Origin: Gordonibacter pamelaeae 7-10-1-b
GTDB taxonomy: Bacteria; Actinomycetota; Coriobacteriia; Coriobacteriales; Eggerthellaceae
Reading direction: 5' to 3'
DNA length: 34,180 bases
Assembly: GCF_000210055.1 (NCBI RefSeq)
Contig: NC_021021.1
Span: 1,219,985-1,254,164 of the forward strand
Positions 2,942 to 33,398 of the stretch are shown piece after piece (position 1 is the first letter of the stretch; every line of letters begins with the position of its first letter). Under the pieces are notes generated by a model, which worked only from the letters and a program-made list of their open reading frames with translations, had not been told where the DNA came from and searched no databases. The translations under genes were made by a program, and so were the position numbers.

Positions 2942-3535
2942 CTACCTGGCCGCCACCGCGTCGATGGCGGCCAGGTTGAGGTCGACGAAGCGCGGCTTCA
3001 CGCAGGAGGAGATGGCGCGGCGCAAGTCGTCCACATCGAGCGGGAGGCAGCCCGTCTTCAGCGCGCTGGCCAGAAGCAGCGTGTTCAGCACCTTGCGGCT
3101 GCCCGCCTGCGCGCACAGCGCCGCATCGTCCACGGCCACGAACGTGGCCGCATCGGCCAGCTGCTCCTGCAGGCGCGCGACCACGGCAGCCGCACGGTAG
3201 GGGGTCTTCGACAGCGCCGCCGTGACGGGCTGGAGCGCTGTCGTGGCCGTGACCAGCGTGCCGCCGGGAGCCAGGAACGGTACCACGCGCGCGGCCTCCG
3301 CCGGCTCGAACGCCACCACGAGGTCGGCCGTGCCGTGCGCCAGCAGTGGCGCCAGCACCTCTTCCCCACCATCGCCCATGCGCACGTGCGACACCACGTT
3401 GCCGCCGCGCTGCGCCATGCCGATGGTCTCGGCCGTGCGCACCTGCCAGCCCTTCTCCTGCGCGGCCTGGGCCAGCACCTTCGCGGCCAGCACCGTGCCC
3501 TGGCCGCCCACGCCCGCCAACAGAACGTTACGCAT
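2942..3535 (-). CDS. iorB: Indolepyruvate:ferredoxin oxidoreductase, beta (gamma-type) subunit
   Basis: This 197-aa subunit pairs with IorA to decarboxylate aryl-pyruvates from transaminated Phe, Tyr and Trp oxidatively, giving aryl-acetyl-CoA, CO2 and reduced ferredoxin. The N-terminus LLAGVGGQGTVLAAKVLAQ (residues 5-23) is the glycine-rich signature of the pyruvate:ferredoxin oxidoreductase gamma domain, and TIGMAQRGG follows as in IorB proteins. Length is normal for the family. The ATG at 3535 overlaps the iorA stop by 8 nt, implying translational coupling. A longer reading upstream lies inside iorA and is rejected. The enzyme is oxygen sensitive, fitting an anaerobe. Confidence 0.9.
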   Translation of the reverse strand: MRNVLLAGVGGQGTVLAAKVLAQAAQEKGWQVRTAETIGMAQRGGNVVSHVRMGDGGEEVLAPLLAHGTADLVVAFEPAEAARVVPFLAPGGTLVTATTALQPVTAALSKTPYRAAAVVARLQEQLADAATFVAVDDAALCAQAGSRKVLNTLLLASALKTGCLPLDVDDLRRAISSCVKPRFVDLNLAAIDAVAAR

Positions 3536-5711
3536 GGGGGCCTCCTTCCGCCGGAGCCTCTGTTTCATGTGACACTGCGGCAGGATTTTCAGCCGCATCC
3601 GCATCCGCCAACTGACCAGCCGGAGGAACGCCCAGCGCGCCGAAGGGGCACACCTGCGTGCACAGGCCGCAGCCGTTGCAGAGGCTCGCATCAACGAACG
3701 CCTGGCCGCGCTCCTTGCTCTTCGGGCCGCGCGCGTCGCCGTCGAAGCCGATGCCGGGACATCCTATCTCGGTGATGCACTTCTTGCAGCCGGTGCACGC
3801 ATCCGCATCCACCGCCGCGGGCGCGCCCGGCCTCACCAGCTGGACGCACGGCGATTCGAACAGGATGGCGCTGGGGCCCTCGAACGCCAGCGCCTCGGCC
3901 GAGGCGGCAACGGAGGCGTCCAGGTCGAGCGGGTCGGCGTGCACGATGCACTCGAAGCCCACGGCCTGGAGCACGCGCTCGATGGAGACGGGCGTGCGCT
4001 TCGGCCCCATGAGCGTGACGCCCGTGCCGGGGTGCGGCTGCGAGCCGGTCATGGCGGTGGTGGCGTTGTCGAGCACGCACACGGTCACGTCGTGGCCGTT
4101 GTAGACGGCGTTCACGATGCCGGGCAGGCCGCTGGCGAAAAACGTGGAATCGCCCACGAACGCCACGTGTTTCTTGCCCGGTTCGGCCACGGCGAAGCCC
4201 TGCGCCATGGTGATGCCCGCGCCCATGCACAGGCACGTGTCCACGGCATCGAGCGGCTTGGCGTTTCCCAGCGTGTAGCAGCCGATGTCGCCGCACAGCA
4301 CGGCCGGTGCCTTCCCCAGCGCACGCTTCACGGCGTAGAAGCTGCCGCGGTGCGGGCAACCGGCGCAGAGCACGGGCGGGCGCACGGGCAGCGGGTCGTC
4401 GGCGGGAGCATCGTAGGAGAGCGGGGTACTCGCCGGGGCCGTCGCGGGAGCAGATGGGGATTCGGGCGAAGATGTTTCACGTGAAACATCTGTTTGTTTT
4501 TCGGCGATGTCGAGGAATCTTGCAATGCGGGCGGCAAGGTCGTCCACGTCGTTCTCGCCGCGGTCGCGCGCGTCGCCGGTGAGCTTGCCGCGCACCGCGA
4601 AAGCCGCATGCGTGCGGCCGGCAAAGCGCAGGAGCTCGTCTTCCAGCACGTGGTCGAGCTCCTCCACGACGAGCACCTCGTCGAGGCCTTCCGTGAACCG
4701 TGCGGCCGTTTTCTCGGGGAACGGGTAAGGCGTCCCTACCTGCCAGAAACGATAGGCGGGCAACTCGGAGCCCTGCTCGGCAGCGCGCTGCTCCAGCATG
4801 CGCAACGCCTCGCGCGCATAGGCCGCCGACACGCCACCCGCCACGATGCCGCGGAGCGGGGTACAAGCATTACCGTTTCCGTCATCAAATGTTTCACGTG
4901 AAACACTTGTTTGCTTTTTTGAATCCCCCGCGAGGGAGCCTCCGAGGGCGGGGGCAGAAGCTGCGCAGGCCTTCTCCGTTTCCTTCGGCCCTTTTCCGGC
5001 GTCGAATATCGGATTGAACGCGGCGAGCGCGGGCTCGGCGGCGAAGTCGCAGGCGATGGCGCGCAGGCGCTCGTTGATCTCGCCATGCGCCTCGTAGGCG
5101 CGGCGCGGGAAGATGATCCACTTGGGGTCGCGCTCGAAACCCTCGGGGGGCACGGAGCGCGCGTCGGTGGCGTCGGCCACGTCGAAGAACGTGGATGCGT
5201 GGTTGATGCGCGTGGTGGGCCGCACGATGACGGGCGTATGGTAGCGCTCGGACAGGTCGAACGCCTCCTTCATCATGGCGAAGCCCTCGTCGGGCGTGGA
5301 CGGATCGAGCACGGGCATCTTCGCGAAGGCGGCGAAGCGGCGCGTGTCCTGCTCGGTCTGCGACGAGATGGGGCCGGGGTCGTCGGCCACGAACAGCACG
5401 AGGCCGCCCTTCACGCCCACGTAGTTCAGGCTCATGAGCGGGTCGGACGCCACGTTGAGCCCCACCTGCTTGCAGGTGAACAGGCAGCGCGCGCCGGCAT
5501 AGGAGGCGCCGGCCAGCAGTTCGAGCGCCGCTTTCTCGTTCGTGGACCATTCCACGTGCACGCCTCGCGCCGCGCCGGACGCGTGCAGCTTCGCCACCGT
5601 CTCTATCAGCTCGGACGACGGCGTGCCGGGATACCCCGCCACCACGCGCACGCCCGCCTCGAGCGCCGCGTGCGCGAACGCCTCGTTCCCCATCAGAAGT
5701 TTCTTCGTCAT
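3528..5711 (-). CDS. iorA: Indolepyruvate:ferredoxin oxidoreductase, alpha subunit
   Basis: The 727-aa thiamine-diphosphate enzyme is the catalytic partner of IorB. The N-terminal pyruvate-oxidoreductase domain has GYPGTPSSE near residue 25. The TPP-binding domain starts near 445 (CAGCPHRG) and contains GDIGCY near 474, GDS near 519 and DNATTAMTG near 548. The C-terminus holds two 4Fe-4S motifs: CTGCKKC...CP near 638 and CNGCGLCTQVCP near 677. The protein is longer than the ~600-650 aa typical of IorA. The surplus is in two low-complexity linkers (about 245-280 and 400-440) and the tail, each holding VSRET or VSHET encoded by a parS-like palindrome (residues 270, 409 and 713). The ATG at 5711 begins the conserved MTKKLLMGNEA; upstream codons are not family-like. 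Confidence 0.92.
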   Translation of the reverse strand: MTKKLLMGNEAFAHAALEAGVRVVAGYPGTPSSELIETVAKLHASGAARGVHVEWSTNEKAALELLAGASYAGARCLFTCKQVGLNVASDPLMSLNYVGVKGGLVLFVADDPGPISSQTEQDTRRFAAFAKMPVLDPSTPDEGFAMMKEAFDLSERYHTPVIVRPTTRINHASTFFDVADATDARSVPPEGFERDPKWIIFPRRAYEAHGEINERLRAIACDFAAEPALAAFNPIFDAGKGPKETEKACAASAPALGGSLAGDSKKQTSVSRETFDDGNGNACTPLRGIVAGGVSAAYAREALRMLEQRAAEQGSELPAYRFWQVGTPYPFPEKTAARFTEGLDEVLVVEELDHVLEDELLRFAGRTHAAFAVRGKLTGDARDRGENDVDDLAARIARFLDIAEKQTDVSRETSSPESPSAPATAPASTPLSYDAPADDPLPVRPPVLCAGCPHRGSFYAVKRALGKAPAVLCGDIGCYTLGNAKPLDAVDTCLCMGAGITMAQGFAVAEPGKKHVAFVGDSTFFASGLPGIVNAVYNGHDVTVCVLDNATTAMTGSQPHPGTGVTLMGPKRTPVSIERVLQAVGFECIVHADPLDLDASVAASAEALAFEGPSAILFESPCVQLVRPGAPAAVDADACTGCKKCITEIGCPGIGFDGDARGPKSKERGQAFVDASLCNGCGLCTQVCPFGALGVPPAGQLADADAAENPAAVSHETEAPAEGGPHA
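3561..3576. promoter_or_regulatory. Degenerate parS-like site in iorA
   Basis: TGTTTCATGTGACACT matches 13 of 16 positions of TGTTTCACGTGAAACA. On the minus strand it encodes VSHET in the IorA tail, in the same codon phase as the two perfect intragenic sites. It may be a decayed or weak ParB site, since three mismatches would normally weaken ParB binding strongly. Confidence 0.3.
4473..4488. promoter_or_regulatory. parS: parS site 1 (ParB-binding), inside iorA
   Basis: This is an exact 16-bp match to the bacterial parS consensus TGTTTCACGTGAAACA, within a 22-bp perfect palindrome (4470-4491). ParB loads here and spreads to segregate the replicated origin. It encodes residues 409-413 of IorA (VSRET), in a low-complexity linker. 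Confidence 0.88.
4890..4905. promoter_or_regulatory. parS: parS site 2 (ParB-binding), inside iorA
   Basis: This exact parS 16-mer lies 417 bp from site 1. It encodes residues 270-274 of IorA (VSRET). The preceding codons also spell K-Q-T at both intragenic sites, so the similarity reaches a little beyond the palindrome. Confidence 0.88.
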
Positions 5712-5792
5712 ACGCGTTTCGCCTGCTTCGGTACTCGTTGGTCGCTGCCAGGACGGCAACGGAAGGGATGCGCCGCCGACTATCCGTACAAA

Positions 5793-5808
5793 TGTTTCAC
5801 GTGAAACA
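5793..5808. promoter_or_regulatory. parS: parS site 3 (ParB-binding), in the iorA leader
   Basis: This exact parS 16-mer sits in a 20-bp perfect palindrome (5791-5810). It lies between the proposed iorA promoter and start codon, so ParB spreading from here could affect iorAB transcription. It is 903 bp from site 2. Confidence 0.9.
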
Positions 5809-5842: not shown

Positions 5843-5851
5843 ATGATAGCA
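5843..5851 (-). promoter_or_regulatory. Probable iorA promoter (extended -10)
   Basis: TGCTATCAT on the minus strand (5851-5843) is a TGn-extended -10 without a clear -35. It would give a ~125-nt leader that includes parS site 3. The 332-nt gap 5712-6043 otherwise holds only the purE terminator. Confidence 0.4.
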
Positions 5852-11161: not shown

Positions 11162-11803
11162 CTACGCCCCCGTCCCGTTGGCGCCAGACGAGGCATTCGA
11201 AGCGGCAGCTTCCTTGGCGGCCGCCAACATATCAGCCCCGGCCAGCGTCACGGTGATCGTTGAAACAACCTCGTCGTTTCGGTCTGTTTTCGCCGTGCTC
11301 ATCGAAACGTTCGCCACGAGGTCGCTGCCCTCGAGCGACGCCACCACGCGCGACACGTCCTGCAGCGAGGTGTTCGCGAATTGCAGCATAACGGTGTTGC
11401 CCGTCACGTTAACCGACTGGAGCTCGGCCATGTTGGCCACCGTTCCCTGCAGCAAGTCGAGTATCGCCCCGCGATCGGCCAGGGCCTTCTCCACATCGGA
11501 CAGGCTGTTCACCGTGAAAGCGGCGTACCGCTCCTGTAGCTCGTCGTAGTCGGCGTTCGCCGCCTCGAGAGCGGACAGCTGGGATTGGGCGGCAGCGACC
11601 TTCCCCGAGGCCGCCGAGGCGGCTGCCATGACATCGACAACCGCGAATTTCGCGAACAGCGCTATCAGCACCAACGCCACGGCGAACAACACGAGGTTGC
11701 GCGCCATCTTGTTCTCGCCCTTGTCATCTACCGCCAAGTTGATGGTGGTCTTCGTGGGATAAACAGGCTTCTTGCTCCGCTTGAGCGTCATCTCGAGGGC
11801 CAT
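11162..11803 (-). CDS. pilN: Type IV pilus assembly protein PilN-like
   Basis: The 213-aa protein has a cytosolic N-terminal segment with a TINLAVDDKG stretch, comparable to the INLLP-type motif by which PilN docks into PilM. One transmembrane helix (about residues 34-56) is followed by an Ala-rich coiled coil and a C-terminal alpha-beta domain ending in a low-complexity tail. It should bridge PilM and PilO. The ATG at 11803 has AGGAG nearby and lies 9 bases after the pilM stop. Confidence 0.8.
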   Translation of the reverse strand: MALEMTLKRSKKPVYPTKTTINLAVDDKGENKMARNLVLFAVALVLIALFAKFAVVDVMAAASAASGKVAAAQSQLSALEAANADYDELQERYAAFTVNSLSDVEKALADRGAILDLLQGTVANMAELQSVNVTGNTVMLQFANTSLQDVSRVVASLEGSDLVANVSMSTAKTDRNDEVVSTITVTLAGADMLAAAKEAAASNASSGANGTGA

Positions 11804-11812
11804 TGCTTCTCC

Positions 11813-12838
11813 TTACTGCAGCGCGATGCCAACGGCAGCAGGACAGATGCGCACCTGATCGGCCACGGCAGGCGAATAGGGCATCATCGCGCCGATATCC
11901 ACCAAATCGATGGCAAGGTGCTCGTCGAGAGCATGAAGCAAGGGGGCGATACCCGACCCGCTTCCGCAGTAATGCACCGTGTTCAGCTGGCTGTTCGGAT
12001 AGTTGAAATTGAAGAAGCTGACGATACGGGCCAGCTCGATGCCAATGCGCTCGTACAGGTCGAGGCATGGCTGAATAGTCTGCGCCCCCTCGTAGTCGTT
12101 GGCCAAGTAAGCCTTCGCCAGGTTGAAATCGACGCCGAAGTGGTCTGCCACCGCAGACGCCAGCGAGAGCGCTCCGAACTCGATAGAGCGCGTGACCTCG
12201 TACTTCCCCTCGGGGAACAGGTACACCTTCGTGTTTGCGCTGCCGATGTCCAAGAAGCAGAAATCCTGATCTGCCGACACCGCCGGCATACCGTCGCCTC
12301 CCGCCGCATGGCGGCGCACATACTGCGAGATGATGTTGGCATAGGCCATGATGTCTGGAGCTGCAATCCGCAGCTTGAGCCCCGCGCGGCGCAGCATGTC
12401 GCCGTAGGCATCGATCGTCTCGACAGGGGTTGCCACGGCCAGCACGTCCATATCCTGCAGGTTGCCCGCCTCGTCGCTGCTCGTGCCCAAGATGGCGTAG
12501 TCGAACCGGTACTTGTCCTTGCCGTCGGCGATGTAATCTCTGAACTCGAATGGCAGGTTGAGCTTCAACTCGTCCACCGTCATGGCGGGCAGGGATATCC
12601 GGCGCGTATACACGTCGCGCGCGTGCAAGACGAGCGCGCAGTTCTTGGCGGTTATCCTATGCTTGCGCACCGCATCGCGCAGCAGCTCGGACATGGTTTC
12701 AAGCGACGTTATACGCCCGTCTTTCACCAGGTTGTCAGGCACTTCCTCGATGGCTATCTGCGAAACCGCCTTGCCGTCGCAGACCGCCAGCTTCAAGTGC
12801 CCGGTTCCGATGTCGACACCGGTGTATGCCTTAGCCAT
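11813..12838 (-). CDS. pilM: Type IV pilus assembly ATPase-like protein PilM
   Basis: The 341-aa cytosolic protein has the actin/FtsA-like fold signatures of PilM. The first phosphate motif is VDIGTGHLKLAV (residues 8-19), the second FLDIGSANTKVYLF, and a glycine-rich YCGSGSGIAPL motif lies near the C-terminus. PilM forms the cytosolic ring that connects the motor to PilN-PilO. The chosen start, MAKAYTGVDIG at 12838, follows AGAGG; the frame is open 20 codons further back across the promoter. It starts a pilM-pilN-pilO run with its own -10 element. Confidence 0.92.
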   Translation of the reverse strand: MAKAYTGVDIGTGHLKLAVCDGKAVSQIAIEEVPDNLVKDGRITSLETMSELLRDAVRKHRITAKNCALVLHARDVYTRRISLPAMTVDELKLNLPFEFRDYIADGKDKYRFDYAILGTSSDEAGNLQDMDVLAVATPVETIDAYGDMLRRAGLKLRIAAPDIMAYANIISQYVRRHAAGGDGMPAVSADQDFCFLDIGSANTKVYLFPEGKYEVTRSIEFGALSLASAVADHFGVDFNLAKAYLANDYEGAQTIQPCLDLYERIGIELARIVSFFNFNYPNSQLNTVHYCGSGSGIAPLLHALDEHLAIDLVDIGAMMPYSPAVADQVRICPAAVGIALQ

Positions 12839-12863
12839 GCGCGCCTCTTTCCCTCGATGGCCC

Positions 12864-12869
12864 ATTATA
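12864..12869 (-). promoter_or_regulatory. Promoter -10 before pilM
   Basis: A perfect TATAAT lies on the minus strand (12869-12864), 25 nt before the pilM ATG, in the 97-nt gap after pilD. The -35 is poor. It suggests that pilMNO can be transcribed independently of the genes upstream. Confidence 0.45.
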
Positions 12870-12935
12870 AAGCAGGGGGCACCGCACAGCGAGCGCAATA
12901 AGCGGGTAAGGGCAAGTTATCAAACCAGATAGACG

Positions 12936-13802
12936 TTAAAACAGCCCCAGGTACCATGCGATAAGCTGCGGGCCGAGGGCGAGGGTGAACCAGGTGGCCA
13001 GCGCGATGGAGGGGCCGAAGGGGAACGCCTGCGGGTCGTTGGTATCTTGGCGGCGCTTCTGGGTGGCGTAGGCGAACACGATGCCCACCACGCAGGCGAC
13101 GATGAGGTTGAGCACGCTGCCCGCAAGGCCCAGGAACAGCCCCACCATGAACACGAGCTTGACATCGCCGCCGCCCAGGCTGCGCCGCCCCATGACCTTG
13201 TCGAACACGAGCGACAGCGCAAGCAGGCAGCCGGCCACCACGAACGCGCCCAGCAAGCCGTCCAGCAGCACGGCCGCAAGCGGCGAGCCGGCGAACGCCA
13301 GCATGAGCGAGCCCAAGCCCATGGCGGAGAGGTCCACGCCGTAAAAGGCGAACGAGACGGCCCACGCCGCGATGCCGGCGATGATGAAGCCGTTGGGAAT
13401 GGTGTAGGTCTCCAGGTCCACGAGCGACAGGCCCAGAAGGATGCAGCCGAGCGCGCACAACGCGAGCGCGTGGACGGTCAGTCCGTAGACGGCCACCATG
13501 CTCATGAAGAAGAGGCCGCAGAGGAGCTCGGCCGCCATATAGCGCGCCGCGATGCGCTCGCCGCAGTAACGGCAGCGGCCCCTGAGGAAGAGCCAGCTGA
13601 GCACGGGCACCAAGTCGAGCGGTGCAAGGGGGTGGTTGCACACGGCGCAGTGGCTGCGGCCCTTCCACACGCTCTCGCCGTGCACGAGCCGCCACGCCAG
13701 GCAGTTGACGAAACTGCCCAGGCACGCGCCCAGCAGCCCAGCTACCAGCAGGAAGAAGATAGGCCATACGGGAGAGAGAATTGCGAGGTCGGTTAGTTGC
13801 AT
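12936..13802 (-). CDS. pilD: Prepilin peptidase / N-methyltransferase
   Basis: The 288-aa polytopic membrane aspartyl protease cleaves the glycine-ended leader of prepilins and N-methylates the new first residue. The cytosolic zinc-type Cys pairs are at 52/55 and 77/80 in the N-terminal methyltransferase domain. The catalytic aspartates are D129 (VDLETYTIPN) and D213 in the GGGDVKL motif (210-216). About eight hydrophobic segments are visible. Length is standard for a bifunctional enzyme. It lies 18 nt after a prepilin gene and would process all prepilins of the locus. Confidence 0.95.
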   Translation of the reverse strand: MQLTDLAILSPVWPIFFLLVAGLLGACLGSFVNCLAWRLVHGESVWKGRSHCAVCNHPLAPLDLVPVLSWLFLRGRCRYCGERIAARYMAAELLCGLFFMSMVAVYGLTVHALALCALGCILLGLSLVDLETYTIPNGFIIAGIAAWAVSFAFYGVDLSAMGLGSLMLAFAGSPLAAVLLDGLLGAFVVAGCLLALSLVFDKVMGRRSLGGGDVKLVFMVGLFLGLAGSVLNLIVACVVGIVFAYATQKRRQDTNDPQAFPFGPSIALATWFTLALGPQLIAWYLGLF

Positions 13803-13820
13803 GGAGGGCCTTTCGCCACG

Positions 13821-14267
13821 CTAGCCGCGCTCGGGGGCGGCAACCCAGGCACAGACGGCCTGGCCGTCCCTTGCGGTGGCCTCGATGATCATGGTGCCGC
13901 GCTCGACGTGCTGCTCCTTGCCGTCGACCACGAGGGTGTCGCCCTCGTTGTAGCCGGCGGGCGGGTCGGCCACGAGCGTGTTCGCACCCTTGGCGTAGTA
14001 GGCGACGTTGGCGCCGTCGGGTTGCAGATGCTTGCGATGGGCGGCGTCATTTCCGCCGGAACACCCGGGCACGAGGCAGCCGCCGGCCGCCTCGACGGCG
14101 GCAACTCCCTGGGCCGTGTTGAGCGCGTTGGCATCGTTGCCCTGCTGCATGAGCGAGAGCATGTACGAGCCGAGCGCCAGTAGCAGCACCACGGCGAAGC
14201 AAGCGATACCGACGATGGAGACGGTTTCGATACGAGAGAGGCCTTGGGTGTTGGTGAGGGGGGTCAT
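13821..14267 (-). CDS. Small prepilin-like protein
   Basis: The 148-aa protein has a short leader ending TNTQG, then LSRIETVSIVGIACFAVVLL, that is, G-1, a hydrophobic +1 and Glu at +5 at the head of a ~20-residue helix. This is the class III signal of type IV pilins and pseudopilins. The mature domain is ~140 aa with three Cys (GGCLVPGC and AVCAW). It does not resemble a named minor pilin. It lies between the pilA terminator and pilD. No clear Shine-Dalgarno precedes the ATG at 14267, so translation may be weak. Confidence 0.7.
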   Translation of the reverse strand: MTPLTNTQGLSRIETVSIVGIACFAVVLLLALGSYMLSLMQQGNDANALNTAQGVAAVEAAGGCLVPGCSGGNDAAHRKHLQPDGANVAYYAKGANTLVADPPAGYNEGDTLVVDGKEQHVERGTMIIEATARDGQAVCAWVAAPERG

Positions 14268-14300
14268 GGTGAAATAAGCAACTCAACGAGATCCTTAATG

Positions 14301-14335
14301 AAATAAAGGGCCGCTTAGAAAACGGCCCTTTATTT
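14301..14335 (-). terminator. Strong terminator after pilA
   Basis: The perfect 13-bp stem 14301-14313/14323-14335 has a 9-nt loop, an A/U-rich base and a GGGCCG core. It lies between pilA and the next gene and would let pilA mRNA accumulate above the downstream pilD-pilMNO message. Confidence 0.85.
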
Positions 14336-14367
14336 ATTGCAAAAATGTATAAATATTAAAATTATGC

Positions 14368-14778
14368 CTAAGAATGACTGGTCGAAGGGGTGATTTTTTC
14401 ATTTGCAGCACTGTAAGTGTAATAAATCTTGTTGCCTTTTTCCCAAGTCACAGTCGAGCCGCCCACGCTCATTCCACCTGTGCCACTTTCGCCTTGACAC
14501 GCAAAGTCGCCATCAGCTTTCTCAACCACGGAGCCATCTGCGTTCAATCCATACCAAGTGTCCGCAGTAAGGTTATCGTCCAAAACCTCAACCGATACTG
14601 TTGCATACCCGCCTCGTATATTGGCAGCATCCGTCTGCTTTTGAGCCTCAGCTAATTGCCCAGTAAACACCGGGATCGCAATAGCGACCAGCACGGCCAC
14701 GATGGCGACTACGATGAGCAGCTCGGCGAGGGTGAAGCCGCCTTTCTCCTCCCGCATGCGTTGAATCATCTGCTTCAT
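14368..14778 (-). CDS. pilA: Major type IV pilin
   Basis: The 136-aa prepilin has a basic leader (residues 1-14, ending KGG), then FTLAELLIVVAIVAVLVAIAI, with cleavage G|F and Glu +5. The alpha-1 helix continues into FTGQLAEAQKQTDAA, and a compact globular part of ~80 aa follows. Its size, textbook signal, strong AGGAG site before the ATG at 14778 and the terminator just behind it suggest it is the main fibre subunit. Only one Cys is present in the globular domain, so the usual C-terminal disulfide loop is absent, as in many Gram-positive pilins. Confidence 0.88.
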   Translation of the reverse strand: MKQMIQRMREEKGGFTLAELLIVVAIVAVLVAIAIPVFTGQLAEAQKQTDAANIRGGYATVSVEVLDDNLTADTWYGLNADGSVVEKADGDFACQGESGTGGMSVGGSTVTWEKGNKIYYTYSAANEKITPSTSHS

Positions 14779-14793
14779 AATTCTCTCCTTCTC

Positions 14794-14905
14794 GAAGCTC
14801 GTTCGAGCTTCTTGTTGAGGCCGCTCTTTGCGGCCGTCCTCACTGCCCCAGCGGCGACTTCTCGGCGCCCATTACCCCACGAAAACACTATGAAATCCCA
14901 TTTCA
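14794..14905 (-). promoter_or_regulatory. Hairpin-rich pilC-pilA spacer / pilA leader
   Basis: The 130-nt gap 14779-14908 has three inverted repeats: 14794-14801/14804-14811 (GAAGCTCG/CGAGCTTC) just before the pilA ribosome site, 14819-14824/14830-14835 (GGCCGC/GCGGCC), and 14891-14896/14900-14905 (TGAAAT/ATTTCA) just after the pilC stop. No confident promoter was found. Possible roles are pilA mRNA 5' stabilisation, a processing site or an operator. Confidence 0.45.
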
Positions 14906-14908
14906 AAC

Positions 14909-16120
14909 CTACATTCCCGAGTAGATCGAGAACATCGCCAAGTATAGCGCAATGACTATGTAACCTGCAAATAACGCGATGAATATCAGGATGCCCGGCT
15001 CCAGCTTCGAGAGCGCTTTCTGCGTGGCGCGGTCGGTCTCGTCGTCGTAGAACGCGCCCATGGTGGCCAGCGTCTCCTCCAGCGCGCCCGTCTCCTCGCC
15101 CACCACCGCCATCTCAACCAGCGGACGCGGCATGAACGGCACGTCCTCCATGCACTCGCCCAGCTGCTTGCCCTCCTCCAGCTTCGCCGTCATCTTACCA
15201 ACACCTTGGCTTATCACGTAGTTGTCCAACACCTTCGCCGTGATATCAACGGCATGGGTCATCTGCAGGCCGGACGTGAGCAGCGTGGACATGGTGTTGG
15301 CGTACTGCGCGGCGTTCGACAGCTGCGCCACCTTGCCCACGGCCGGCAGCTTCAGCTTGAACGTGGCCCACATCGCGCGGCCCTTTTCCGTCTTGGTCCA
15401 CAGCTTCACGCCGATGACCGCCGCCGCCAGCACCAGGATGATCCACAGGATGTTCGCCGCCATGAAGTCGCTCGCGTTGATGAGTATCTGCGTTGCCAAC
15501 GGCATTTCCGTGTCGTAGCTGGACAGGATATCCTTGAACGTGGGGATGACCATAACCATGAGCACCGCCACCACCACGATGGCTATGATGATGACGAAAA
15601 TAGGATAGGTGACGGCCTGGGCCACCTTCGCCTTCGTCTTGCTGTGCTTGTCGTAGTATTTGTGCAGCGTGTCGAAGCTCCGGTCGAGCGTGCCCGCCTG
15701 CTCGCCGGCGCGGATGGTCTCGTAGAACAGGACGGGCAGCTTGGCGCCGCCCTTGCTCTCGAAGCTGTTCGCCAGGCTGTGGCCGGCCGCCACATCCTCG
15801 GCCACCTCCTGCAGGATGGCCTTCAGCCCCTTGTCGGACGTCTGCTCGGCCACCAAGCTCACGCTCTTGGCCATGCCCATGCCGGTGCCGACGATGATGG
15901 AGAACTGCGAGCACATGATGGCGATGACCTTCGGCTTGATCTTGCCGGAGCCTAGTTCCATCGTCAGGAAGTTCGGGCGCTCCTTCACCTGCGCCACCTT
16001 GCTCACCACGCGGCACGACGCCTTCGCCTTCTCCAGCGCCTCGAACTCGTCGAACGCCTCCACCACGCCGGAAACACGTTGCCCGGACGCCGACATCCCC
16101 TCGTATTTGAAAACGGCCAC
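14909..16120 (-). CDS. pilC: Type IV pilus inner-membrane platform protein PilC
   Basis: The 403-aa protein has two T2SSF repeats. The N-terminal MAVFKYEGMSASGQRVSG and the MCSQFSIIVGTGMGMAKS segment open the first, while QYANTMSTLLTSGLQMTHAV opens the second. Three transmembrane regions are visible: near YPIFVIIIAIVVVAVLMV, near NILWIILVLAAAVIGV, and at the C-terminus. PilC anchors the motor ATPases PilB and PilT and turns ATP hydrolysis into pilin insertion or removal. It starts with GTG at 16120 after AGGAAGG, 12 nt from pilT. Confidence 0.94.
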   Translation of the reverse strand: MAVFKYEGMSASGQRVSGVVEAFDEFEALEKAKASCRVVSKVAQVKERPNFLTMELGSGKIKPKVIAIMCSQFSIIVGTGMGMAKSVSLVAEQTSDKGLKAILQEVAEDVAAGHSLANSFESKGGAKLPVLFYETIRAGEQAGTLDRSFDTLHKYYDKHSKTKAKVAQAVTYPIFVIIIAIVVVAVLMVMVIPTFKDILSSYDTEMPLATQILINASDFMAANILWIILVLAAAVIGVKLWTKTEKGRAMWATFKLKLPAVGKVAQLSNAAQYANTMSTLLTSGLQMTHAVDITAKVLDNYVISQGVGKMTAKLEEGKQLGECMEDVPFMPRPLVEMAVVGEETGALEETLATMGAFYDDETDRATQKALSKLEPGILIFIALFAGYIVIALYLAMFSIYSGM

Positions 16121-16132
16121 GGTTCTGCCTTC

Positions 16133-17191
16133 CTAGAAACGGCTCGTGCTCTTGGTGACGTACTCCACGTCGTGCGCCGCGTCAATGGCGGTTTGAGCAT
16201 CGATAAAATTGCGCTTGAACAGGTTGATCAGCGCGTTGTCCATGGTGATGGACCCCACCGATGCCGACGTGGCCAGCGCGTTGGCTATCTGGGGCGTTTT
16301 GCCCTCGCGGATGAGGTTGCGGATGGCAGGCGTCACGATCATGAGTTCCGCCGCCAGCACGCGCCCGCCGCCGCGCCTGCGCACCAGCTGCTGGCTCAGC
16401 ACGGCATGAAGGCACGTGGACACCTGCATGCGAATCTGGCGCTGAAGGCCCTCGGGGAACACGTCCACCATGCGGTCGATGGAGTCGGCCGCCGAGTTCG
16501 TATGCAACGTGGCCAGCACCAGGTGGCCGGTCTCGGCGGCAGTGAGCGCGGTCTCGATGGTGTTCAGGTCGCGCATCTCGCCGATGAGGATGACATCGGG
16601 GTCCTCGCGCAGCACGGCACGCAGGGCATCGGCATAGCTGGCGGTGTCGGTGCCTATCTCGCGCTGGTTGATGACGCACTGGTCGGGCGTGTGCACGTAC
16701 TCCACGGGATCTTCCAGCGTGATGATATGGTCGGTGCGCGTGTGGTTGATCTGGTCGAGCAGCGCCGCCATGGTGGTGGACTTGCCGGAGCCCGTCTCGC
16801 CCGTCACCAGGATGATGCCGCGCTGCAGGCGGGGGAAGTCCAACACCGCCGGGGAAAGGCCCAGCTCGTCGAGCGGCGGGATGACGTCGGACAACAGGCG
16901 CAGCGCCGCGCTCACGCTCCCCTTCTGGCGGAAGAGGTTGATGCGCACGCGCACGCCGGCGATGGTGTGCGCCAGGTCGAGCTCGCCGCAATCCTTGATG
17001 GAGTCGTATCCTTTGCCGGACAGCTCCTGCGCGTACATCTCGCACTGCTTGTGCGTGAGGGGCTCGCAGCCCGGCATGGTTTCGAGCCTGCCGTCGATGC
17101 GGTACTTGGGCGGCAGGTCGCACACCAGGTGGATGTCGGAAGCTCCAGCCTCGTGAGCCTGCGCTACCAGTTCTTCGGCCGATTTCAACAT
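16133..17191 (-). CDS. pilT: Type IV pilus retraction ATPase PilT
   Basis: The 352-aa hexameric cytosolic ATPase drives pilus disassembly. Walker A is GETGSGKST at about residues 131-139, followed by a GEMRDLNTIETAL Walker B region and a His box (ATLHTNSA). The retraction-specific signature AIRNLIREGK is present near residue 288, which separates PilT from PilB-type ATPases. Length is usual. The start at 17191 follows GGAGAA. Its presence predicts dynamic, retractable pili and possibly twitching or DNA uptake. Confidence 0.95.
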   Translation of the reverse strand: MLKSAEELVAQAHEAGASDIHLVCDLPPKYRIDGRLETMPGCEPLTHKQCEMYAQELSGKGYDSIKDCGELDLAHTIAGVRVRINLFRQKGSVSAALRLLSDVIPPLDELGLSPAVLDFPRLQRGIILVTGETGSGKSTTMAALLDQINHTRTDHIITLEDPVEYVHTPDQCVINQREIGTDTASYADALRAVLREDPDVILIGEMRDLNTIETALTAAETGHLVLATLHTNSAADSIDRMVDVFPEGLQRQIRMQVSTCLHAVLSQQLVRRRGGGRVLAAELMIVTPAIRNLIREGKTPQIANALATSASVGSITMDNALINLFKRNFIDAQTAIDAAHDVEYVTKSTSRF

Positions 17192-17202
17192 GGGCGGTTC
17201 TC

Positions 17203-18912
17203 CTACTCCAAGGTGTTGATGGTGCGGGTGGCTTCCTCGACGGTGGTCACGCCATCATGCACGAGCTTTATAACACTGGCGGAAAGCGTGGCGAAGTCGG
17301 CGCGCTCCAGCAGCATGCGAATGGCATCGCGGCCGGCATTCTCGGCGATGGCGCGGCGCAGCTCGCGGTCGATCACCAAAATCTCGAACACGCCCGTGCG
17401 GCCGCGATAGCCGGTGTGGAAACACAGCGGGCAGCCCTTGCCGTGGTAGAACTTCTCGCCGCTGGCTGCGGAAAGGCCCAGCAGGTCCAGGTCGTCAGCG
17501 GAGGGCTGGTATTCCTCGCGGCAGTGCGGGCAGATGCGGCGCACGAGGCGCTGGCTCACGATGCCGCGCAGGCCGGACGAGATGAGGTACGGCTCCACAC
17601 CGATGTCCAGCAGACGGTCGATGGTGGACAGCGAGTCGTAGGTGTGGATGGTGGACAGCACCAGGTGGCCGGTGATGGCGGCGCGCATGGCTATCTCGGC
17701 CGTCTCGCCGTCGCGGATCTCGCCCACGGCCACGATATCAGGGTCCTGGCGCAGGATGGAGCGCAGGCCGCTGGAGAACGTGAGGCCCGTCTTCTCGTTG
17801 ATCTGCACCTGGTTGATGCCGTCGATGTTGTACTCAACCGGGTCTTCCAAGGTGATGAGCTTCACCTGCTCGGTGTTGAGCTCGCGGATCATGGTGTACA
17901 TGGTGGACGATTTGCCCGAGCCCGTGGGGCCCGCGATGAGCAGCACGCCGTTGTTGGAGTGGATGAGGCGATGGTACTTGTCCAGGTTCTCGCCGTAGAG
18001 GCCGATGCCCTTCGGGTCGAGCAGCTGCGAGCTCTTGTCCAACAGGCGCACGACCACCGATTCACCGTAGATGGTGGGCAAGGTGGACAGGCGCAGGTCG
18101 ATGTCGCGGCTCTTGATGCGCACGTTGGCACGGCCGTCCTGCGGCACGCGGCGTTCGGCTATGTTCATGCCGCCCATGATCTTCAGGCGCGAGATGACGC
18201 TGCTTTGCAGGTCGCGCGGCACGGTGAGCACGTTGCGCATGATGCCGTCGATGCGCATACGCACCTGCAGGTCGCCTTCGCGCGGCTCCAAGTGCACGTC
18301 GGAGGCGCGCTCGGTGGCGGCGCGCTCGATGATGGAGTTCACCAGGCGGATGGTGGGCGCGCTCTGCGCCTCGTCCTCGGCGTCGAGCGTGGTGCCGGCG
18401 AAGCGCACGTCGGTGGCATCGGTGCCGGTGGCCGTGGAGTTGGCAGCCTCGGTGCGCATGTCCTCGATGGCGCGGGCGGCGCCCTCGTTGCCGTAGAGCT
18501 GCATGATGGCACGTTCGATGGCGAGCTTCGTGGACACCATGGGCACGATACGCCGCCGCGTGGCCGTGCGCGCCTCCTCCTGGGCGATGAAGTTCATGGG
18601 GTCGCTCATGGCCACGAACACCTCGTCGGGCGTGGCCTTCACCGGTACCATGTTGTACTTCTTCGCCATGTTCTTGGGGATGGTCTGCGTGAGGTCGGTG
18701 GGAAGGATGACGTTCGTGAGGTCGATGAAGTCGATGCCCAGCTGCATGCACAGGACGTCGATGAGCTCCTTCTCGGTGATGTAGCCCGCGTCGATGAGCG
18801 TCTCGCCCAGGCGCATGCCGCTGTCCTTCTGCAGCGACAGGGCCGTGGTGAGCTGATCGGTGGTGATGTAGCCGCTGTCGAGGAGCATGTCCCCCAGTCG
18901 CTTGTACGCCAT
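17203..18912 (-). CDS. pilB: Type IV pilus extension ATPase PilB with MshEN domain
   Basis: The 569-aa GspE/PilB ATPase powers pilin polymerisation. The N-terminus carries two tandem copies of the c-di-GMP-binding MshEN motif, at residues 5-28 and 34-57, each with RLG, G-Y-I and a terminal Q. Walker A GPTGSGKSS is near 325, Walker B VGEIRDGE near 395, and a Cys4 zinc element (CPHC near 460, CPLC near 493) follows. All key motifs are intact. It lies between the minor-prepilin genes and pilT. The MshEN motifs imply that c-di-GMP raises extension, as known for MshE-type ATPases. Confidence 0.95.
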   Translation of the reverse strand: MAYKRLGDMLLDSGYITTDQLTTALSLQKDSGMRLGETLIDAGYITEKELIDVLCMQLGIDFIDLTNVILPTDLTQTIPKNMAKKYNMVPVKATPDEVFVAMSDPMNFIAQEEARTATRRRIVPMVSTKLAIERAIMQLYGNEGAARAIEDMRTEAANSTATGTDATDVRFAGTTLDAEDEAQSAPTIRLVNSIIERAATERASDVHLEPREGDLQVRMRIDGIMRNVLTVPRDLQSSVISRLKIMGGMNIAERRVPQDGRANVRIKSRDIDLRLSTLPTIYGESVVVRLLDKSSQLLDPKGIGLYGENLDKYHRLIHSNNGVLLIAGPTGSGKSSTMYTMIRELNTEQVKLITLEDPVEYNIDGINQVQINEKTGLTFSSGLRSILRQDPDIVAVGEIRDGETAEIAMRAAITGHLVLSTIHTYDSLSTIDRLLDIGVEPYLISSGLRGIVSQRLVRRICPHCREEYQPSADDLDLLGLSAASGEKFYHGKGCPLCFHTGYRGRTGVFEILVIDRELRRAIAENAGRDAIRMLLERADFATLSASVIKLVHDGVTTVEEATRTINTLE

Positions 18913-18928
18913 GCAGGTGGGTCCTTTC

Positions 18929-19513
18929 CTACCAGTTGTTGACGGTTCGCACGGTTATCGTTTTCGATTGAGCTTCGTAGTCGCCGTTGGAGACGGTGAG
19001 GGAGAACGCCCAGAGGCCTCCGCCTGCCGGGTCGGGGTTCCAAGTGAGCGAATCGAGCTGGACTGATGCGCCCGTGCCGGAGGTGTCGGTGTTCAAGAGG
19101 GGCAGAGCGGCTACGGTATCCACGGTGCCAGGTAAGGGGTCTGCCGTGCCTTCAGGGTTGGCGGCATTCACGCCATTCACCGTTATGGTGTTCGCGTCGT
19201 TCGCCAAGTAGAGGCGGTATCCGCGCACCGAGCTGTCGAAAGCGTAGACAGGGCCGACGCCCGAGCTCGCGCCGCTCACTGCCTCAACATCGTAGGCGAA
19301 GCGCAACTCGTCCTGCACGGCCGTGACGGCATTGCCCATGAGCGCGTTCGCCTCGGTGGCCTGCTTGATGCTGCCGTATGCTTTCACGGCCACGCCGATG
19401 CCCGCCGCCACGGCCAAGGTAAGCAGCCCCACCAGCAGCACCGTGACCAGCACCTCGCCGAGGGTGAAGCCATCGTCTGCCCGCAGCGCCCTCGCGGTAC
19501 GCGGCGCGCGCAT
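18929..19513 (-). CDS. Minor prepilin, PilW/GspJ-like
   Basis: The 194-aa protein has a 15-residue leader ending DDG, then FTLGEVLVTVLLVGLLTLAVAA, with cleavage G|F and Glu +5. The mature part is larger than the major pilin and rich in Thr, Asp and Gly. Size and place beside pilV- and pilX-like genes suggest a PilW/GspJ-type priming or tip pilin; the name is by context. The ATG at 19513 has a strong AGGAGG, one base after the stop of the upstream gene. Confidence 0.78.
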   Translation of the reverse strand: MRAPRTARALRADDGFTLGEVLVTVLLVGLLTLAVAAGIGVAVKAYGSIKQATEANALMGNAVTAVQDELRFAYDVEAVSGASSGVGPVYAFDSSVRGYRLYLANDANTITVNGVNAANPEGTADPLPGTVDTVAALPLLNTDTSGTGASVQLDSLTWNPDPAGGGLWAFSLTVSNGDYEAQSKTITVRTVNNW

Positions 19514-19514
19514 G

Positions 19515-19889
19515 CTAGTTCCCTCCTTGGGCCGGTTCGGGCAGCTCGTAGCGCTGGAACGAATAACCGTTGGCGTCGCTGTCGTTGGAAGTGATCAGCT
19601 GCACCTGCGGCTCCCAAGAGAGCGACCCGTCCCAGCTGGAACTCGTGCCGACCACCTGCGCCCGGGAAGCCGCCGAAGCGGAGCCCGTGGCGGCGTCGAT
19701 GCCGCCCGTCTGCTCATAGGCACCTTGCAGCGCGGCGGTGCTGGTGAGCGACACCTGCGTGGCAACGTTTATCATCGTTGCCAGAACCACGGTTGCCAGG
19801 CCCACTATCAGAACGCCCACCAGCACCTCGGTGATGGTTTCGCCGGCAGTGGAGCGTAGGGTGGCGATTTTGCGCTTGCGGCAGCCCAT
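19515..19889 (-). CDS. Minor prepilin, PilV/GspI-like, with Glu at +1
   Basis: The 124-aa protein has a basic leader ending STAG and then ETITEVLVGVLIVGLATVVLA. Gly -1, Glu +5 and the EVLVGVLIVG helix match PilV/GspI-type minor pilins. The first mature residue would be Glu instead of the usual Phe or Met, which is unusual. The small mature domain is Ser/Thr rich. It is tightly packed: one base separates it from each neighbour, so it is cotranslated with the PilX- and PilW-like proteins. Confidence 0.75.
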   Translation of the reverse strand: MGCRKRKIATLRSTAGETITEVLVGVLIVGLATVVLATMINVATQVSLTSTAALQGAYEQTGGIDAATGSASAASRAQVVGTSSSWDGSLSWEPQVQLITSNDSDANGYSFQRYELPEPAQGGN

Positions 19890-19890
19890 G

Positions 19891-20523
19891 TTACCCGTCC
19901 ACCTTGGTGCGCTCGGTCTTGGTTATCATGGCGTCTTTCCAGGTAACTTTTTGGAGCGTGGTGCCTGTTTCATCGTAAAGGCACGACGCGGGAATGGTGA
20001 GCACCACTTGGTAGTTGCCCACGGCACCATCATAGGAAGCGGGCGAGAACGCTATGCGGATGTCGAAGGGGTTGTTGGCCTTTTCGCCCCCCATGGTGAA
20101 CTGGGCGGACACGGCAACCATATCGGCCGCACCAACGGGGGCGTTCACCTTGAACTGCGCAGAGGCCGAAGGCTGGGGCGTCGACAGAGCAGCTGCGGGC
20201 AATGCAATGTTGACCGCCTTCACCGCTCCGGCAAGGTACTCTTGCATGCTAGCGTTCCCGTCGGCAAGCGAGCACTCGTAAACGTCGCCCGAGATGGTGC
20301 AGGTGCCATCGACGATCTCGTCGCGCAGCAGCTCCGCCGCCGACGTGGTGGAGTAATAGGCCTGCTGGCTTTTCTCATAGTCCACCAGCTGCCCCGTGCC
20401 CACCGAGGCAGCCGTGAGCACCACGCCGCCCACCAAGGCGCACACGAGGAAGAACAGCAGCGCAATGAGGATGGACGCGCCGCGTTCGTCCAAAGCACGG
20501 TATGTAGACGCATACGACCTCAT
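19891..20523 (-). CDS. Minor prepilin, PilX/GspK-like, lacking Glu5
   Basis: The 210-aa protein begins with a leader ending DERG, followed by ASILIALLFFLVCALVGGVVL, which resembles the PilX_N segment. There is no Glu at +5. In type II secretion the GspK pseudopilin also lacks it and caps the tip, so this is probably the tip-most subunit. The ectodomain has two Cys at the start (TCTISGDVYEC), a likely disulfide. It starts one base after the stop of the giant adhesin gene, which supports a shared tip complex. Confidence 0.72.
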   Translation of the reverse strand: MRSYASTYRALDERGASILIALLFFLVCALVGGVVLTAASVGTGQLVDYEKSQQAYYSTTSAAELLRDEIVDGTCTISGDVYECSLADGNASMQEYLAGAVKAVNIALPAAALSTPQPSASAQFKVNAPVGAADMVAVSAQFTMGGEKANNPFDIRIAFSPASYDGAVGNYQVVLTIPASCLYDETGTTLQKVTWKDAMITKTERTKVDG

Positions 20524-27376: not shown

Positions 27377-27377
27377 G

Positions 27378-27623
27378 TCAGAGAGCACCTTCATGAACTG
27401 CGATGCCTGATGCCGAACTGTCAAAAGCATTCTTGTCTTTAGAATAATCTTCAGAGGGGTTGGCTTTGAAGAACTTGATGGAATAACTGCTCTGATCAGG
27501 GAGCCGATCAGCTATGTGATAGGTATTCGTGCTTTTCTTCTCAATCTTCAAAAGGCTCGAGGCGTCAGGGTATACCCCAGCCGGACAGGTAATGTCCGGA
27601 GAAGAGACAACGCCAACGAGCAT
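27378..27623 (-). CDS. 81-aa protein of unknown function in the pilus operon
   Basis: This small frame fits exactly between the giant prepilin and the giant adhesin, with a 2-nt gap after the former's stop and a 1-nt gap before the latter's ATG. The ATG at 27623 follows GGAAG; a GTG at 27629 would overlap the upstream stop. The product has one Cys, no membrane helix or signal peptide, and the sequence SSYSIKFFKANPSEDYSKDKNAFDSS resembles an extracellular fragment. It could be a genuine small pilus protein or a frame-shifted remnant of the neighbouring ectodomain. No family is recognised. Confidence 0.5.
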   Translation of the reverse strand: MLVGVVSSPDITCPAGVYPDASSLLKIEKKSTNTYHIADRLPDQSSYSIKFFKANPSEDYSKDKNAFDSSASGIAVHEGAL

Positions 27624-30727: not shown

Positions 30728-32017
30728 TTAGTTCCAAGCCTCGCGGCCGGCAGCGGCCTTCTTGCCGATGTCGGTGCGGTACTGCTTGCCCTCGAAGTTG
30801 ATGAGGTTGCAGGCCTCGTAGGCCTTCTCCCGGGCGTCGTCGAACGAGTCGCCCAGCGCCACCACGTTGAGCACGCGGCCGCCGGCCGTGACCAGCTCGC
30901 CGTCGGCGTTGCGGGCCGTGCCGGCATGGAACACCGTCACGCCCTCCAGCTCCTCGGCCTCCTCGATGCCGAGGATGACCTTGCCCTTCTCGTAAGCGCC
31001 GGGGTAGCCCTCGCTGGCCAGCACCACGCACACGGCCCACTGCTCGCTCCAGCGCAGCTCGATGTCGTCGGGGCGGCCTTCCGCAACGGCCAGCACGATG
31101 TCCACGAGGTCGGCCTCCAGGCGCGGCAGCACGACCTGCGTCTCGGGATCGCCGAAGCGCGCGTTGAACTCCAGCACCTTCGGGCCTTCGGGCGTGAGCA
31201 TGAAGCCTCCGTACAGCACGCCGCGGTAATCGTTGGCGAAGTCGGTGGCCGTGGCGGCCGCGGACTGCTCCATGATCTCATGCATGGCGGCCAGCTCGTC
31301 GGCCGTCACGATGGGCACCGGCGAGTACACGCCCATGCCGCCCGTGTTCGGGCCGCGGTCGCCGTCGAAGGCGCGCTTGTGGTCTTGGGCCGTGGCCATG
31401 CAGTGGGCCTTGCCGCCGCTCACGAACGCGAGCAGCGAGCACTCGGGGCCGGTGAGGCATTCCTCTATGACCACGGTGGAGCCGGCCTGGCCGAACGCGC
31501 CATCGAAGCAGGAGCGCACGGCTTCTTCCGCCGTCTCCTTGTCCTCGGCCACGATGACGCCCTTGCCCGCCGCCAGGCCATCGGCCTTCACCACGACCGG
31601 GGCCTCCAGCGCGGACAGGTAGCCCAGCGCCGCCTCGAGGTCGTCGAAGCTGCCGTAGCGCGCGGTGGGAATGCCGTGGGCATCCATGAAGCGCTTGCTG
31701 AACGTCTTGCTTCCCTCAAGCTGGGCGCCCTGGGCATCGGGGCCGAACACGGCGATGCCGGCCTCGCGCAGCTCGTCGGCCACGCCCGCGACGAGCGGCG
31801 CCTCGGGGCCGATGACCACGAGCTGCACGTCGTGCTCCTCCACGAACGCCAGCACCGCGCGGCCGTCCTCGACGGCAAGATCGGGCACGTTGCGCGCGAT
31901 ATCCGCCGTGCCGCCGTTGCCGGGGGCCACGTAGAGCTTGTCCGTGCGCGGGGACTTCGCAAGCGACCACGCGATGGCATGCTCGCGGCCGCCGCCGCCC
32001 AACACCAAGATGTTCAT
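30728..32017 (-). CDS. purD: Phosphoribosylamine-glycine ligase PurD
   Basis: The 429-aa ATP-grasp enzyme joins phosphoribosylamine and glycine to GAR, step two of purine synthesis. The N-terminus MNILVLGGGGREHAI is the family hallmark, HSP-like GPNTGGMGVYSP and FNARFGDPETQ mark the ATP-grasp and metal site, and the rest aligns at the usual length. The ATG at 32017 follows AAAGGAACGG; an earlier in-frame ATG at 32032 has no such site. It lies 64 nt downstream of purA, probably in the same transcript, and ends at a strong terminator. Confidence 0.96.
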   Translation of the reverse strand: MNILVLGGGGREHAIAWSLAKSPRTDKLYVAPGNGGTADIARNVPDLAVEDGRAVLAFVEEHDVQLVVIGPEAPLVAGVADELREAGIAVFGPDAQGAQLEGSKTFSKRFMDAHGIPTARYGSFDDLEAALGYLSALEAPVVVKADGLAAGKGVIVAEDKETAEEAVRSCFDGAFGQAGSTVVIEECLTGPECSLLAFVSGGKAHCMATAQDHKRAFDGDRGPNTGGMGVYSPVPIVTADELAAMHEIMEQSAAATATDFANDYRGVLYGGFMLTPEGPKVLEFNARFGDPETQVVLPRLEADLVDIVLAVAEGRPDDIELRWSEQWAVCVVLASEGYPGAYEKGKVILGIEEAEELEGVTVFHAGTARNADGELVTAGGRVLNVVALGDSFDDAREKAYEACNLINFEGKQYRTDIGKKAAAGREAWN

Positions 32018-32041: not shown

Positions 32042-32057
32042 TGTTTCACGTGAAACA
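32042..32057. promoter_or_regulatory. parS: parS site 4 (ParB-binding), purA-purD spacer
   Basis: This exact TGTTTCACGTGAAACA lies in the 64-nt gap between purA and purD, ~26 kb from the other three. It is intergenic but would be within the purA-purD transcript. Confidence 0.9.
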
Positions 32058-32081: not shown

Positions 32082-33398
32082 CTAGCGATCCCACCCTCGC
32101 ATGATGGTTTGATCGCGATCGGGGCCCACGGCGATGATGCTGACCGGCACGCCGGTGATCTTCTCCAGATACTCCACGTAGCGCTGCGCGTTCTCGGGCA
32201 GCTCCTCGAAGGTGCGGCATTCGGTGATGTCGACGCCCTTCCAGCCGGGCAGCTCCTCGTACACGGGCTTCGCGTGGAACAGCACGCTCTGCTGCATGGG
32301 GAAGTAGTCGTATACCTTGCCCTCGCACTCGTAGGCCGTGCACACCTTGATGGTGTCGAAGGCGGAGAGCACGTCGAGCTTCGTAAGCGCCACGTCGGTG
32401 AGGCCGTTGACTTCGGCGGCGTAACGCGCGATGACGGCGTCGAACCAGCCGCAGCGGCGCTTGCGCCCCGTGGTCACGCCGAACTCGTGGCCCACCGCGC
32501 ACAGCGTCTCGCCGACCTCGGCCTCCTCGCCAACGCCCCCGTCCTCGGGGAAGCGCTGCTCCGTGGGGAACGGGCCCTCGCCCACGCGCGTGATGTAGGC
32601 CTTCTGGATGCCCAGCACGCGCTCGATGGCCGTGGGCCCCACGCCCGAGCCCGTAGCGGCGCCGCCGGCGCAGCACGACGAGCTGGTGACGTAGGGGTAT
32701 GTGCCGTGGTCGATGTCCAAGAGCGTGCCCTGCGCGCCCTCGAAGAGTATCGACTTGCCGGCGCGCAGGCCCTCGTTCAGCAGCTGGGCCGTCTCGGCCA
32801 TGTAGGGCTTGAGGATGCGCGCGTAGGGCAGGTACTCCTCGCAGATCTCGTCGACCGTGTAGGTGTGCAGACCGTAGATCTTCTGCAGCACGGGGTTCTT
32901 CTGCGCCAGCGCCGTCTCCAGCTTCAGGCGGAAGATCTTCTCGTCCAGCAGATCCTGGATGCGGATGCCCTTGCGGGCGGCCTTGTCCTGGTAGCACGGG
33001 CCGATGCCGCGCTTCGTGGTGCCGATCTTGTTCTCGCCCAGGCGCTTCTCGTCCGCGCCGTCGAAATCCTTGTGGTAGGGCATGATGACGTGCGCGTCGC
33101 AGCTGATCTTGAGGTTCTTGCAGGAGATGCCCTCGGCCTCCAGCATGGCCATCTCCTTGATGAGCACGCCGGGGTCCACCACCACGCCGTTGCCGATGAC
33201 CGGCACCGCGTGGTCGTACATGACGCCGGAGGGCATGAGGTGCAGCGCGAGCTTCTTATCGCCGTGGATGACCGTGTGGCCGGCGTTGTTGCCGCCTTGG
33301 TAGCGCACGACGAAATCGTATTCGCGTGCGATCAGGTCGGTTATCTTGCCTTTGCCTTCGTCTCCCCATTGGGCGCCGACGAGTACCGTGCTGGGCAT
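32082..33398 (-). CDS. purA: Adenylosuccinate synthetase PurA
   Basis: The 438-aa cytosolic GTP-dependent enzyme converts IMP and aspartate to adenylosuccinate on the way to [15 protein letters not shown] near residue 10 is the P-loop with catalytic Asp, and NNAGHTV near residue 37 carries the catalytic His. [15 protein letters not shown] and GWFDAV are further conserved segments. Length is normal and all motifs are intact. The ATG at 33398 follows AAAGGA. It is followed by parS site 4 and purD. Confidence 0.97.

Follow-up and report, generated by a model that had tools for sequence, protein, structure and literature searches.

The stretch of DNA analysed here, referred to as the window, comprises 34,180 nucleotides of the Gordonibacter pamelaeae 7-10-1-b genome (C1:1219985-1254164). 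It contains iorA and iorB, which encode the two subunits of indolepyruvate ferredoxin oxidoreductase, as well as purD and purA (Table 1). A type IV pilus cluster extends from 11162 to 20523, in which a PilM-like protein was identified with Pfam, and PilT/PilB-like ATPases, a PilC-like protein, and prepilin peptidase-like and pseudopilin-like open reading frames were recognized from translations alone. Adjoining the pilus genes, the minus strand (20525-27430) encodes a predicted secreted or surface protein of 2301 amino acids with repeated glycine-rich segments, for which a Pfam search returned no match. An earlier note on this DNA had reported four exact copies of the 16-mer TGTTTCACGTGAAACA, which matches the parS consensus, and all four are present. 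When up to three mismatches were allowed, five parS matches were found, compared with 0.09 expected from shuffled sequences, and none of 100 shuffles reached five.

Table 1. Genes, parS sites and associated elements in the window.
Feature	Position	Strand	Remarks
iorB	2942..3535	-	Beta subunit of indolepyruvate ferredoxin oxidoreductase; Pfam POR
iorA	3528..5711	-	Alpha subunit; Pfam POR_N, TPP_enzyme_C, Fer4; hosts the three-site cluster
parS-like site, apparently decayed	3561..3576		Three mismatches; reads V-S-H-E-T; near the 3' end of iorA
Exact parS	4473..4488		Inside iorA; encodes V-S-R-E-T on the minus strand, flanked as EKQTD-VSRET-SSP
Tail of the 4473 site, TCTGTTTG	4489..4496	+	Read outward from the site
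Exact parS	4890..4905		Inside iorA; encodes V-S-R-E-T on the minus strand, flanked as KKQTS-VSRET-FDD
Tail of the 4890 site, CTTGTTTG	4906..4913	+	Read outward from the site
Tail of the 5793 site, TTTGTACG	5785..5792	-	Read outward from the site
Exact parS	5793..5808		In the iorA 5' leader, ~34 bp downstream of the -10-like TATCAT
-10-like TATCAT, in TTTGCTATCATG	5843..5848	-	Common to iorA upstream regions of relatives; judged by eye
purD	30728..32017	-	Pfam GARS_A/N/C
Exact parS	32042..32057		Intergenic, between purA and purD, upstream of the purD start; tail not clear
purA	32082..33398	-	Pfam Adenylsucc_synt

The three sites grouped within 1.3 kb all belong to iorA; the cluster is one gene with a single leader site and two in-frame linker sites, rather than the centromere for which it had been taken, and two of the three sites lie inside coding sequence. 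The leader site is also found in iorA of Eggerthella, Rubneribacter, Paraeggerthella, Senegalimassilia and a MAG, in addition to Gordonibacter. The coding sites fall in hypervariable inserts that separate the conserved domains of the protein, and VSRET occurs within such inserts in Gordonibacter, Enteroscipio and a distant MAG. The site at 3561 resembles a copy that has decayed, as an intact VSRET is kept at the corresponding end of the protein in relatives (L083, L087 and L088). In the iorA linkers of L083, L086 and L097, we also observed inserts reading CHPER...EGS, which resemble another repeat that is read through.

The identification of the 16-mer as parS holds, and parA and parB are encoded side by side in the same genome. 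The ParB match (E 2.6e-53) is at 1296198, and ParA (L061:3802-4932; AAA_31, E 6e-67) lies directly upstream of it. Aligned with ParB and Noc structures, the protein carries KGRSTVAN and AGHARA, which are of the ParB type, where Noc has KGQS and TERHARA. Smc was found in all nine genomes tested, high- and low-copy alike, although in the G. pamelaeae assembly the gene is in pieces, probably at assembly gaps. Because low-copy relatives also have Smc, it cannot explain the expansion of parS described below. A second match to the ParB-like family TIGR00180 lies near the origin region (C1:1309864-1310217, L018), in an open frame of 789 amino acids. A second ParB-like gene was considered as a cause of the expansion and rejected, since the occurrence of additional TIGR00180 matches, which some relatives also have, does not follow the number of parS copies, and the genomes G053 and G052 have only a single TIGR00180 match each.

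When all copies of the 16-mer were mapped, as the earlier note had recommended, the G. pamelaeae genome was found to contain 78 exact copies, and 86 when up to two mismatches were allowed, while a reversed-pattern control gave none. Seventy-five of the exact copies lie beyond the iorA cluster. The densest zone, with 15 copies crowded between 1287.7 and 1300.0 kb, is at dnaA (1288455) and parAB, and the remainder are scattered. The window is indeed origin-proximal, at ~64-72 kb from the dnaA/parAB region, and the iorA cluster is also ~72 kb out in two closed Eggerthella genomes; the step from a local parS cluster to an origin or centromere was not supported, since parS spans much of the chromosome in Eggerthellaceae and three sites in 1.3 kb are therefore no mark of an origin. 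Overall, that first interpretation is partly supported.

The G. pamelaeae assembly, a single sequence, is interrupted by many N runs and changes GC-skew sign many times; it is thus a gapped scaffold of uncertain order, and distances within it are unreliable past the local neighbourhood. For this reason its contig order was dropped as a chromosome map, and the distribution of sites was examined in closed relatives. In closed Eggerthella genome G053, positive GC skew prevails from ~20 kb to 2.1 Mb and gives way to negative skew thereafter. Together with the position of parB, ~6 kb from the contig end, this places the origin near the contig start. Along the right arm of this chromosome, successive 100-kb intervals contain 23, 13, 4, 10, 5, 4, 6, 2, 0, 0, 0, 0, 0, 5, 3, 0, 0 and 1 parS sites (KS p 5e-17; p 4e-13 past 50 kb). 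In closed genome G020, with parB used as the origin marker, one arm has 22 sites within its first 100 kb (KS p 9e-6), and the gradient past 50 kb is marginal (p 0.07). The parS field is graded, strongly in Eggerthella and weakly in G020, and the even scatter by which the earlier note would have been refuted was not observed; density drops away from the origin, yet sites extend into the terminus half. Sites are thus concentrated near oriC, as a core at dnaA/parAB together with a graded field.

To place these numbers, we surveyed sampled genomes, one per species, at the level of family, class and phylum. Within the family, genomes contain from 0 to 148 exact copies, and expansion (21–148 copies) is limited to some Eggerthellaceae genera, including Gordonibacter (25-79), Eggerthella (109-148, with 130 in a closed genome), g6 (108, in a closed genome), g24 (42-126), g37 (63-122) and g25 (48-103), while most other genera have 0-7. 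Outside Eggerthellaceae, the maximum was 4 copies in the class survey and 21 exact copies in the phylum survey. A ParB tree requires a minimum of three switches between the high copy state and the others, and therefore expansion or loss was repeated; a single origin of the expansion was rejected on the same ground. On contigs C1 and C7 of G010, parS occurs in tandem at steps of ~75-76 bp (98884, 98960, 99036, 99112), unlike other genera. The 78-148 copies of parS, spread over megabases, are neither few nor tightly clustered, two features that are usual for ParABS without strictly defining it. The literature available to the analysis contained no report of such an expansion and none on parS in either Eggerthella or Gordonibacter.

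Dispersed sites differ from core sites in their flanks. A profile of 191 dispersed sites revealed a one-sided tail, T-Y-Y-G-T-[T/A]-C-G (TYYGTTCG), with frequencies of 0.93 for G at +4, 0.83 for T at +5 and 0.85 for C at +7, and a weak TYCG on the untailed side, while 33 core sites profiled in the same way had no tail. The orientation in this profile was itself fitted, and the raw count therefore carries more weight: in the G. pamelaeae genome, 40 of 63 dispersed sites have the tail on at least one side, compared with 0 of 15 core sites. The combination parS-NNN-GTWCG is present in 32 of the 138 genomes in the family survey, nearly all of them expanded and a few with 5-13 sites, and it is absent from the remaining low-copy genomes of that survey. 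Among close pairs of sites, 15 of the 39 spaced by less than 200 bp are 34-36 bp apart, in three genera, and these are often arranged tail to tail with about two bases shared. Pairing between the two flanks exceeds the expectation from composition over their first three to four positions, and no excess of G-U pairs was found there. With respect to replication direction, tails on the right arm point either way (40 to 40 of 80), and a replication-polar motif like KOPS was accordingly rejected; with respect to genes, they lean mildly toward the downstream gene (45 to 21). The half-site plus tail was also rejected as a separate signal, since outside full sites it occurs 0 times in G053 and once in G052.

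Most sites are intergenic, 72 of 78 in G. pamelaeae and 96 of the 109 known in G053 (about 88-92%, in genomes that are ~80% coding), fractions that are approximate because the gene caller, which found the ~80% coding, misses some genes of the parAB region. The five coding sites of G. pamelaeae are all in the V-S-R-E-T frame and mostly in linker-like stretches. The hypF gene of Eggerthella lenta contains three coding sites, one of which is common to Gordonibacter despite a diverged surrounding linker, and the parB gene itself has a parS inside. The codons that spell VSRET in these sites are rare in the genome, the chance of the parS spelling being 1.4e-6 per peptide, and it appears that the DNA word, rather than the peptide, is what is kept. 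Exact copies also dominate the mismatch spectrum, with 52 exact sites, 13 with one mismatch, 2 with two and 1 with three in 439.5 kb of G053, and 36, 2, 1 and 3, respectively, in 400 kb of G052. Among G053 sites that could be mapped, 27 of 41 have a parS in the orthologous G052 interval as well, compared with 15 of 52 control gaps, and one flank or both of the recurring sites often contain little DNA that can be aligned. That the sites are exact, persist where the DNA has diverged and are spelled with rare codons points to selection acting on DNA, and the pattern of recurrence favours a maintained function with turnover. At four sites of this comparison (340348, 150833, 104218 and 20268), parS lies at the border between well-aligned and unalignable DNA, a position that may have arisen through turnover at the palindrome or simply from gene proximity.

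Several of these properties raise the question of whether the dispersed copies are a mobile palindrome of the REP/BIME kind, derived from parS or having captured it and spreading into linkers and the gaps between genes, with the tail and pairs as element ends and ParB binding incidental. A short palindrome in many, largely intergenic copies is what such an element would look like, and the tail that core sites lack, its near confinement to expanded genera, the polar and inverted forms implied by the 34-36 bp pairs, and flanks that pair with each other past column composition all fit; in addition, the L083 iorA linker appears to hold another repeat-like stretch, CHPERR. However, imperfect copies are few, unlike decaying repeats, a density gradient from the origin is unexpected for a selfish repeat, and the comparison of G053 with G052 revealed no clean insertion with a duplicated target, although the gaps are too diverged to show boundaries. 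Furthermore, the Y1 (RAYT) transposase family was not found in G053, G052 or G063 (the G. pamelaeae genome has two matches), and its absence from three strongly expanded genomes makes the REP/RAYT mechanism unlikely; another copying mechanism is possible. Taken together, we regard a mobile-element origin of this kind as unlikely, though less so than the two readings that follow.

The 16-mer might instead have been taken over as a regulator operator, 5'-leader hairpin or terminator for adjacent genes. In favour of such a role, six other genomes have the iorA leader site closely following a conserved -10-like element, with flanks that differ and are partly complementary; the mild lean of tails toward the downstream gene and the hairpin that L089 keeps where parS has been lost would also suit it. 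A few sites (1137078, 1648528) do fit a terminator by eye, but most do not, and no consistent T-run after the sites was seen by eye. Sites are also found inside genes and in gaps of all three types (co-directional, divergent, convergent), their flank pairing shows no G-U preference, and neither exactness nor the origin gradient would be explained, so that we consider this role improbable. Still less probable is the ordinary origin-proximal parS cluster that was proposed at the outset; the distance of the window from dnaA/parAB agrees with it, but the 75 further copies, many of which in closed relatives are remote from the origin, refute it as a full account, and the flank architecture differs from that of core sites.

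The explanation that we find probable, with some reservation, is that these are genuine chromosomal ParABS parS sites, multiplied and graded along the chromosome as ParB loading sites. Its basis is observed, namely the number and exactness of the sites, their gradient in closed relatives, the tail, the pairing, the restriction to a clade and the presence of parA, parB and smc; that ParB binds the sites is what we infer. According to this explanation, the classical core group would be retained at dnaA/parAB, and the other sites, most of them tailed and some paired tail to tail, would serve as additional points of ParB loading whose density is graded along the chromosome, located between genes or in protein linkers that tolerate them. 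ParB would load at most sites, spread as a CTP clamp and recruit Smc, and condensation and origin capture would then extend over hundreds of kb instead of proceeding from a single point. The 8-bp tail probably marks a second requirement, either a candidate partner protein or an element-copying process. ParB alone does not explain the tail, the 34-36 bp pairs or the near-palindromic flanks, which resemble a repeated element. A more elaborate version, which we offer tentatively and hold to be possible but doubtful, is a distributed centromere with a second parS class, defined by the 8-bp tail and tail-to-tail pairs and recognized by ParB together with a partner, that would set up a graded ParB/Smc landscape from the origin to mid-arm and reach into protein linkers. 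Unless most of them are weak, more than 100 parS sites could be expected to be harmful to the cell. In Caulobacter, extra distant parS sites disturb segregation (PMC5815017), and in B. subtilis they lead to Smc collisions, such that scattering has been called counterproductive (PMC8357415); given this harm elsewhere, Eggerthellaceae would be expected to have distal sites that are weak, a low flux of Smc or an Smc that behaves differently.

The reason for the low number and clustering of parS sites is an open question according to a review of ParABS (PMC7333895), and the copy numbers in Eggerthellaceae challenge the rule that the sites must be so arranged. Related genera that span 0-7 to 148 sites provide a natural experiment for ParB spreading, Smc loading and segregation, and Eggerthella lenta has reportedly been made genetically tractable (PMC9734109). 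If selection does keep the DNA word within enzymes (iorA, hypF) and parB, chromosome architecture would be shaping protein sequence.

Reported numbers of parS range from one to 20-23 per chromosome (PMC7333895, PMC10197239). The Eggerthellaceae system resembles the ParABS systems of Bacillus, Caulobacter and Corynebacterium (PMC7333895) in its 16-bp site, adjoining parA and parB, dense origin group and Smc, but differs from them in having 78 to 148 sites over megabases, tails, fixed-spacing pairs and genic sites. Streptomyces likewise has many sites near oriC and scattered ones, with a mean of 22.8 and a maximum of 65 (PMC8743542); these figures were obtained by weight matrix, whereas exact copies reached no more than 21 outside Eggerthellaceae in our phylum survey. 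In B. subtilis, eight parS sites are distributed over about 0.75 Mb, some well off the origin, where they have been discussed as a hazard for Smc collision (PMC8357415). Eggerthellaceae have about ten- to eighteen-fold more sites than B. subtilis, without the sporulation rationale suggested there. We know of no sporulation in Eggerthellaceae. REP/BIME elements share with the dispersed sites the form of short intergenic palindromes in polar and paired arrangements; in contrast, the Eggerthellaceae copies are near-perfect, follow an origin gradient and have a cognate binding protein encoded in the genome, and several of their carriers are without a Y1 transposase.
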